Source: Halichondria panicea
Lineage: Eukaryota; Porifera; Demospongiae; Suberitida; Halichondriidae
Length of the DNA: 64,000 bases
Reading direction: 5' to 3'
NCBI RefSeq assembly: GCF_963675165.1
Contig: NC_087385.1
Span: 2,418,501 to 2,482,500 of the forward strand
Positions 25,445-58,251 of this stretch are shown piece after piece. The notes under the pieces are model-generated. The model saw nothing but the letters and a program-made list of their open reading frames with translations. It did no database searches and was not told the origin of the DNA. Position 1 is the stretch's first letter, and every line of letters starts with the position of its first letter. The position numbers and the translations under genes are program-made.

Positions 25445-26067
25445 TTATAATTCTGCAGTGAATTTACTCTCAGCATCAGTATTTGGGTAGACGACTACCG
25501 TGGCTCCTTTAAACTTAAAACGAATTGTTCGTGTTGGAGATTTAATCAGTTCATCTTTGAAGTTCATAGTCTCCATAGGAACCATTGACAATGCTAAATC
25601 TTCTTTCCCCGTGTCGGAATGAAATTTAGACTGAGGGTTAGTGAAGCTTAGACTTGAGGAGGGCGGTTGTTTAATAGTGCTGCCACGAGCGAGAGTAGAC
25701 CTTAGGGTGCTCAATCCAGTGTCTGCAGACAGTGCATGATTAATTTTGTTTCACACATATTAAACAAACAAACAAACAACATTTAAATTTATACATTGTA
25801 CTAGTCTTCCATCCCCATTGATCGAGCACAAAACTTACCATCGGAAATAGATTTTGACTTATTTCTGTATGCAGAGAAGGTTGAAGATCCTGTCATCTGT
25901 ATGTAAAATGAAAAGTGAAAATAAAACAAGGGCCATGCACTGCAATGTCTAGATGTATGCTAAACACACGTTCACAAAAATAGACCTACCACTCTGAACC
26001 GTCTGCTTGCATTCCCAGAGAGCCACTTGGAAGCAGACGACAAGCGCGGACCGATTTTACTCCACAC
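25445..26067 (-). other. Cytoplasmic tail exons of the receptor
   Basis: Exons 25990-26067, 25839-25896 and 25445-25722 follow the last helix. They encode a basic, serine-rich tail ([17 protein letters not shown], then [16 protein letters not shown]) ending KFTAEL before TAA. No known domain and no PDZ-binding consensus is evident. Confidence 0.75.

Positions 26068-58251: not shown

Follow-up and report, generated by a model that had tools for sequence, protein, structure and literature searches.

Introduction

Self-cleavage, a tethered agonist and activation by ligand or by force are established features of adhesion GPCRs, and the latrophilins (ADGRL) carry rhamnose-binding lectin and olfactomedin domains. 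The hemicentins are secreted chains without a seven-helix (7TM) core.

A study on Amphimedon queenslandica reports 40 adhesion GPCRs, two of which it names as carrying SRCR repeats; the legend of its domain figure lists Ig, fn3, EGF and HRM for this set (PMC4302439). A passage on the starfish A. planci places 7tm_2 among the domains co-occurring with SRCR (PMC10855680). For Halichondria panicea transcripts, 333 GPCR genes with a 7TM domain are given, 57 of them also with a GPS, and receptor gene expression is described as individual-specific, in passages that do not mention the gene studied here (PMC8242945). The HRM-GAIN-7TM combination is stated to predate animals, with extensive domain shuffling inferred (PMC12716839), and sponge SRCR and GPCR genes are stated to respond to microbial signals (PMC6208332).

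Here we describe a locus in a stretch of 64,000 nucleotides from H. panicea, called the window below (C9:2,418,501-2,482,500, contig NC_087385.1), and compare it with the genome (131 Mb, 39 contigs). Positions given without a contig are those of the window. A first-pass annotation had proposed here a single adhesion receptor gene with a new architecture.

Results

Gene model

The gene model was built with a dynamic-programming exon finder and then by hand. An initial gene finder with cheap introns produced 246-356 tiny exons and was discarded. Without constraints the finder predicted a single gene of 96 exons (58559 to 24035), and with the start and stop fixed at the coordinates of the first-pass annotation it returned 98-125 exons, depending on the penalty. 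Short low-scoring intronic exons were then removed and the HormR, 7TM and terminal exons re-placed by hand, and the final count of 80 exons is due to this curation. The resulting path lies on the minus strand (C9:2443945-2476751), begins with the ATG at 58251, ends with the stop at 25445 and comprises 16,506 nt and 5,501 amino acids with the terminal stop only. The open path of about 80 exons without a frame break was thereby rebuilt, and the joins 37475-36213, 44346-43355 and 49799-49329, named earlier as places to check, are all present in it. All 79 introns are GT-AG (median length 106 nt); 53 are in phase 1, 22 in phase 0 and 4 in phase 2. The previous description of the ectodomain modules as almost all phase 1-1 agrees with introns 1-54, where 45 are in phase 1 (two of these inside SRCR domains) and all nine phase-0 introns interrupt split Ig domains; the phases of introns 55-79 are mixed.

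The best exon path scored 1428 on the real strand; the opposite strand reached 138, the reversed sequence 140 and five local shuffles 0-44. Since the scoring was trained on the model itself, it is biased towards the real strand. The dN/dS of duplicated ectodomain blocks was 0.33-0.66 in all nine comparisons. The open path, the domains and the above-chance score confirm that the gene structure is real.

Six long single-exon ORFs of one related family (five on the plus strand, one on the minus strand) lie at 3056-10871 and 23960-25183. The motif HACGHN occurs in five of them, and the family is presumably an M20-type peptidase. The last ORF (23960-25183) runs towards the receptor stop and ends 261 nt from it. 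An open frame on the plus strand at 16370-17671 contains a coiled-coil-like stretch followed by a sequence that by eye is protein-kinase-like.

Domain content

The encoded chain has the order: an unnamed first domain, 32 Ig, 2 SMB-like, 2 SRCR, 8 FN3 and 5 EGF domains, two HormR domains, GAIN/GPS and 7TM, where the numbers are totals per type; the positions are collected in Table 1. The Pfam scan was run on eight pieces covering every module type, but not every repeat copy, of the joined translation. Above the cut-off it found two SRCR domains (PF00530, 208.2 bits, 2 stretches), Ig, the four FN3 domains of the first set, five EGF_CA, two HRM, GAIN (PF16489, 69.5 bits), GPS (PF01825, 37.5 bits) and 7tm_2 (PF00002, 177.7 bits, positions 3-250 of 250). 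The domain search suggested in the first-pass annotation therefore recovered these types, and the proposed C-terminal order of HormR, GAIN/GPS and a complete seven-helix core is borne out. The somatomedin-B (SMB) modules stood in part: with a cut-off of 23.1, the whole exon scored 21.2 and remained below it, the first half passed with 25.0 and the second half failed with 14.3. The 32 Ig units, counted by exon type, all have the Cys-Trp-Cys spacing, and the first Ig of exon 19 is without the usual Tyr-x-Cys. The second FN3 set (four exons) is 95% identical in amino acids to the first four, which were scored by Pfam.

No Pfam family was found in the first 223 residues, a single-sequence fold of exon 1 was uninformative (mean pLDDT 32.9), and a profile of the first domain had no match among solved structures at E up to 1. 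Exons 57-60 contain no Pfam family above the cut-off, and the names SEA and TSP3, given to them by eye, were dropped for this reason. There are 144 N-glycosylation sequons before residue 5085. The GPS, with HL|T at residues 5091|5092, lies directly before TM1 (near residue 5112).

Table 1. Positions of the features of the receptor gene in the window.
Feature	Position	Strand	Basis
Exon 1: signal peptide and first domain, no Pfam family	57726..58251	-	model, Pfam
Exon 2: cysteine-rich module, phase 1-1, 0 Pfam families	57516..57659	-	model, Pfam
Exon 3: Ig-Ig (copy 1 of 4)	56464..57045	-	model, Ig spacing
Exons 4-6: Ig, split Ig	54073..55225	-	model, Ig spacing
Exon 7: two somatomedin-B-like modules	53467..53766	-	Pfam (first half only above cut-off)
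Exons 8-11: Ig-Ig (copy 2), Ig, split Ig	51902..53313	-	model, Ig spacing
Exons 12-15: two SRCR domains with a phase-1 intron inside each	50790..51689	-	model, Pfam
Exons 16-18: Ig, split Ig	49799..50471	-	model, Ig spacing
Signal-peptide-like start in intron 18, 57 nt before exon 19	49387..49447	-	intron scan
Exons 19-26: Ig-Ig (copy 3), Ig, split Ig, Ig-Ig, Ig, split Ig	46084..49329	-	model; Pfam on exons 19-23
Exons 27-30: four FN3 domains (first set)	44346..45696	-	model, Pfam
Intron 30 (990 nt): GT-rich stretch of ~200-260 nt, matches at many other places	43356..44345	-	repeat search
Exons 31-42: Ig-Ig (copy 4) and duplicated Ig run	39125..43355	-	model, self-comparison
Exons 43-46: four FN3 domains (second set)	37475..38846	-	model, self-comparison
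726-nt MITE-like element inside intron 46 (37474-36214)	36556..37281	-	repeat search
Exons 47-49: Ig, split Ig	35564..36213	-	model, Pfam
Exons 50-54: five calcium-binding EGF domains	34424..35457	-	Pfam
Exons 55-56: first HormR domain and the linker after it	33878..34351	-	Pfam, paralogues
Exons 57-60: region without Pfam family above cut-off	32538..33724	-	Pfam, paralogues
Intron 60 (1220 nt): two short interspersed repeats; C5-tail homology begins near 31478	31318..32537	-	repeat search (930 nt)
Exons 61-62: second HormR domain	30575..31317	-	Pfam, paralogues
Exons 63-69: GAIN domain with GPS (HL|T, residues 5091|5092)	28555..30418	-	Pfam, ADGRL3 alignment
Exons 70-77: seven-helix core	26496..28434	-	model, Pfam
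Exons 78-80: cytoplasmic tail and stop	25445..26067	-	model

The GAIN-GPS-7TM part, which the window gene has in common with the latrophilin ADGRL3 known from solved structures, aligned with the human protein through the GPS (E 6.3e-59, 489 chain residues); rhamnose-binding lectin and olfactomedin, the traits of ADGRL, were absent from the Pfam scan of the eight pieces. The hemicentins were the top matches in the protein search (about 25% identity) and resemble the window gene in their long Ig runs with EGF domains. Unlike them, the chain of the window gene ends in GAIN-7TM, with the 7TM core in the same open path, and it carries the SRCR domain that marks the SRCR superfamily. Judged by these domains, an adhesion GPCR (class B2) with this ectodomain is the best reading.

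Paralogues of the first domain and the tail

Three tandem genes on contig C5 have relatives of exons 1-2 upstream of a HormR-GAIN-7TM tail on the same strand. They are like the window gene in the first domain, in the near-identical tail and in homologous pieces of introns, and unlike it they showed no Ig or FN3 match. Between head and tail nothing was recognised in copy 1, where the exon 2 relative lies 745 nt from the HormR exon; copy 2 has a Ser/Thr-rich stretch and copy 3 has sushi and SRCR domains. At C5:1822318-1825818, two 7TM exons of copy 2 are separated by a long run of tandem repeats, and exon 1 of this copy contains a stop. The exon predictions for C5 copies 1-3, C4 and C2 contain spurious small exons, and only exons matching the window or known module sequences were used.

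Relatives of exons 56, 58, 59, 61-63, 66 and 67 and of the 7TM exons follow each other in order on C1 (5926899-5932159), and relatives of exons 56, 59, 61, 63-66 and of the 7TM exons do so on C3 (3344673-3349775), with identities of 33-73% and a few weak matches (E up to 0.002). Since these relatives are colinear, exons 56-60 are tied to exons 61-80.

In amino acids, the first domain is 40-44% identical to its C5 and C2 relatives, and 41-45% to those on C5 when the aligned codons are compared. It matches six other places in the genome: the three on C5 have the tail, and among the three on C2, the one at C2:2792051 has no 7TM in the prediction. An initial view, in which the first domain by itself would mark a 7TM receptor, was given up because this relative heads a predicted single-span gene. 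The exon prediction at C2:2792000-2795782 gives the unnamed first domain, then sushi-like exons and a single membrane span.

C5 copy 3 corresponds to an annotated H. panicea protein, adhesion GPCR L3-like (P0040), whose sequence follows the copy-3 exons; it is named isoform X2 and is one of five member sequences. P0040 begins within a sushi domain and is without the first domain, so that the link between head and tail rests on colinearity and not on a transcript. In the glass sponge Oopsacas minuta, a protein of 2197 residues (P0005) contains an FN3 run, EGF and a GPS, followed by what by eye is apparently one membrane span and not seven.

No public protein for the window locus was found in protein searches, in which two queries covered residues 1-2957 and 1-4481 only; one search, within its length limits, listed a single C5 copy of the three. 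Because the queries were partial and C5 copies were missing from the results, this null says little.

Long introns

All 15 introns of 300 nt or more were scanned for internal gene starts and ends, and no convincing one was found. A transcript that starts with a new signal peptide inside the interval had been named earlier as a sign against a single gene. One signal-peptide-like exon was detected (49447-49387, intron 18), while 60 shuffled intron sets contained 1.75 on average and at least one in 73% of sets. This exon may be an alternative start or may have arisen by chance; the first is conceivable because the predicted phosphatase-like gene on C4 has a similarly placed signal exon, 75 nt before its Ig-Ig exon. 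Three terminal ORFs with a membrane span were found in the 15 introns: the one in intron 30 is a GT repeat with a good acceptor, and those in introns 19 and 46 have weak acceptors. Eight of the 15, introns 3, 46 and 60 among them, contain AATAAA or ATTAAA. Equivalent joins elsewhere in the window have short introns (189 and 281 nt between Ig-Ig and Ig, 153 nt between SMB and Ig-Ig), and FN3-to-Ig joins with 111-nt introns occur twice in the predicted C4 array.

Of the 1261 nt of intron 46, 726 nt are a transposon-like (MITE-like) element, flanked by TA on both sides and with the inverted ends TACAGTGCCTTCAG. Of 639 candidates 40 were scored, and 39 of these, at other places, are copies or partial copies with 86-97% identity. 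The reading of the gap 37475-36213 as a gene border is weakened, because this much of the intron is a repeat. Intron 60 contains two repeats of about 205 and 240 nt in the 930 nt searched, and intron 5 has a stretch recurring on C5; the genome-wide search left out introns 2, 3, 18 and 19. Repeats thus make up part of three long introns, which supports one gene.

Different ages of the parts

Judged by synonymous divergence, the first domain and the tail of the window gene are clearly of different ages. Compared with the three C5 genes, the dS of HormR2, GAIN and 7TM is 0.09-0.26, while that of the N-terminal exons is 1.00-1.15, values that are high and hence approximate. The cytoplasmic tail exons have diverged further, with 0.29 (123 codons, copy 2) and 0.58 (52 codons, copy 3), and no match with copy 1 was scored. 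Intron pieces homologous to C5 extend from about 31478 to 25441, so that the tail homology reaches into the phase-1 intron 60. The low dS of the tail would be explained both by gene conversion and by transfer of a tail copy. For GAIN and 7TM against the C5 copies the dN/dS is 0.21-0.43. When the C5 genes are compared with one another, dS is 0.05-0.12 for the N-terminus and 0.07-0.28 for GAIN and 7TM, and dN/dS ranges between 0.47 and 1.25; constraint on these copies may therefore be relaxed. Many blocks of the window are 74-95% identical to one another, and the internal ectodomain duplications have dS of 0.05-0.24, of similar age to the tail divergence.

The nearest relative of the Ig-Ig exon outside the window, in the whole genome, is on C4 (50% amino acid identity). 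The other Ig and FN3 modules were compared with the C4 and C5 stretches only, where C4 pieces match up to 82%. The C4 receptors are like the window gene in these modules and differ from it in having single-pass or phosphatase-like tails (by exon prediction, without a Pfam scan) in place of 7TM. In the prediction, adjoining giant Ig/FN3 genes lie at C4:4376522-4417072, one ending in sushi-like exons and a single span and one in two phosphatase-like domains; further FN3/Ig matches are on the other strand at 4421-4430 kb.

Discussion

The locus as a whole is probably explained by a single gene encoding an adhesion GPCR of about 5,500 residues. We agree with the caveat of the first-pass annotation that phase compatibility alone cannot decide the number of genes. 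Its claim of a single gene has gained support from colinear paralogues, from the lack of a convincing start or end in the long introns and from the intronic repeats, and from these we infer a single transcript. The head and tail recurring together on C5 and the colinearity of C1 and C3 speak for one gene, and so does the constraint on GAIN and 7TM together with the need of such a tail for an upstream signal peptide. Against it speak the different ages of head and tail, the C2 relative that joins this head to a single span in the prediction, and P0040, which starts without the first domain. On balance, one gene from 58251 to 25445 is likely.

One could argue that two or more neighbouring genes lie here, for instance a gene for an N-terminal Ig/SMB/SRCR protein, with its end in intron 18, 30 or 46, and then one for a shorter adhesion GPCR. 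Introns 2, 18, 30 and 46 (470, 469, 990 and 1261 nt) are indeed long enough for a gene border, and the 57 nt between the signal-peptide-like exon and Ig-Ig exon 19 are similar to the distance in the C4 phosphatase gene. However, shuffled introns yield such exons at least as often, a convincing terminal membrane exon is found in none of the 15 introns, the Ig-Ig exon 8 is preceded by just 153 nt, more than half of intron 46 is repeat, and the first domain stands upstream of the 7TM tail in every C5 gene, which makes this arrangement unlikely. The same intron 18 exon could instead serve as an alternative start within one locus that has alternative promoters or ends and produces the full-length receptor along with shorter or secreted forms. 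This is compatible with the single gene and is a possibility of rather less than even weight: the isoform label of P0040 speaks for it, while shorter or secreted forms are without direct evidence at this locus.

Mis-assembly with collapsed or expanded repeats, or a decayed gene, has also to be considered, as assemblies can mishandle blocks as similar as those of the window. It is highly improbable, given 80 exons without internal stop or frameshift, dN/dS below 1 in every block comparison and block copies that differ from one another. The contigs retrieved for comparison, at 7-8.6 Mb, point to an assembly from long reads.

For the single receptor gene, a mechanism can be proposed by analogy with known members. 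Self-cleavage of the GAIN domain at HL|T would yield an outer fragment of about 5,090 residues that stays bound to a seven-helix fragment of 410. Once a ligand binds or the outer chain is pulled, the tethered agonist TSFAVLF would be released and G-protein signalling would begin. The ectodomain may form a long, glycosylated rod for adhesion, in which the recognition modules SMB and SRCR lie close to the outer end, and cell-cell, matrix or microbial recognition are its likely roles. The outer chain may have grown by shuffling and tandem duplication of phase-1 modules between the first domain and the tail.

We know of no adhesion GPCR with nearly as many Ig domains. The claim of a new architecture was nevertheless partly too strong, because adhesion GPCRs with SRCR repeats, a feature of the window gene too, are reported from Amphimedon, in a set that also has Ig, fn3, EGF and HRM domains (PMC4302439), and because 7tm_2 is listed with SRCR in a starfish (PMC10855680). 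The main text of that paper does not contain 'somatomedin', in contrast to the SMB-like pair of the window gene. For 32 Ig domains or an SMB pair in an adhesion GPCR no published match was found in a search of text only, with most subscription journals outside it, and adhesion GPCR, somatomedin and sponge never appeared together in one paper. Thus the window gene is an extreme variant of the published sponge SRCR adhesion GPCR type.

A wider picture, which we put forward tentatively, is a Halichondria receptor family in which one HormR-GAIN-7TM tail has been copied or gene-converted across loci and the outer part swapped as phase-1 cassettes between first domain and tail, and in which phosphatase and single-pass receptors share the Ig/FN3 runs. 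Within such a recognition repertoire, fast-evolving and perhaps specific to the individual, no other member would be as expanded as the window gene. Should the single transcript be confirmed, an early-branching animal would have an adhesion GPCR of extreme make-up. Its size and its list of modules are striking, but a more useful finding is that its parts differ in age: with a head and a tail of different ages, the history of domain shuffling in this family can be dated and tested one locus at a time, and some of the modules lead back to genes whose signalling tails are of another kind.
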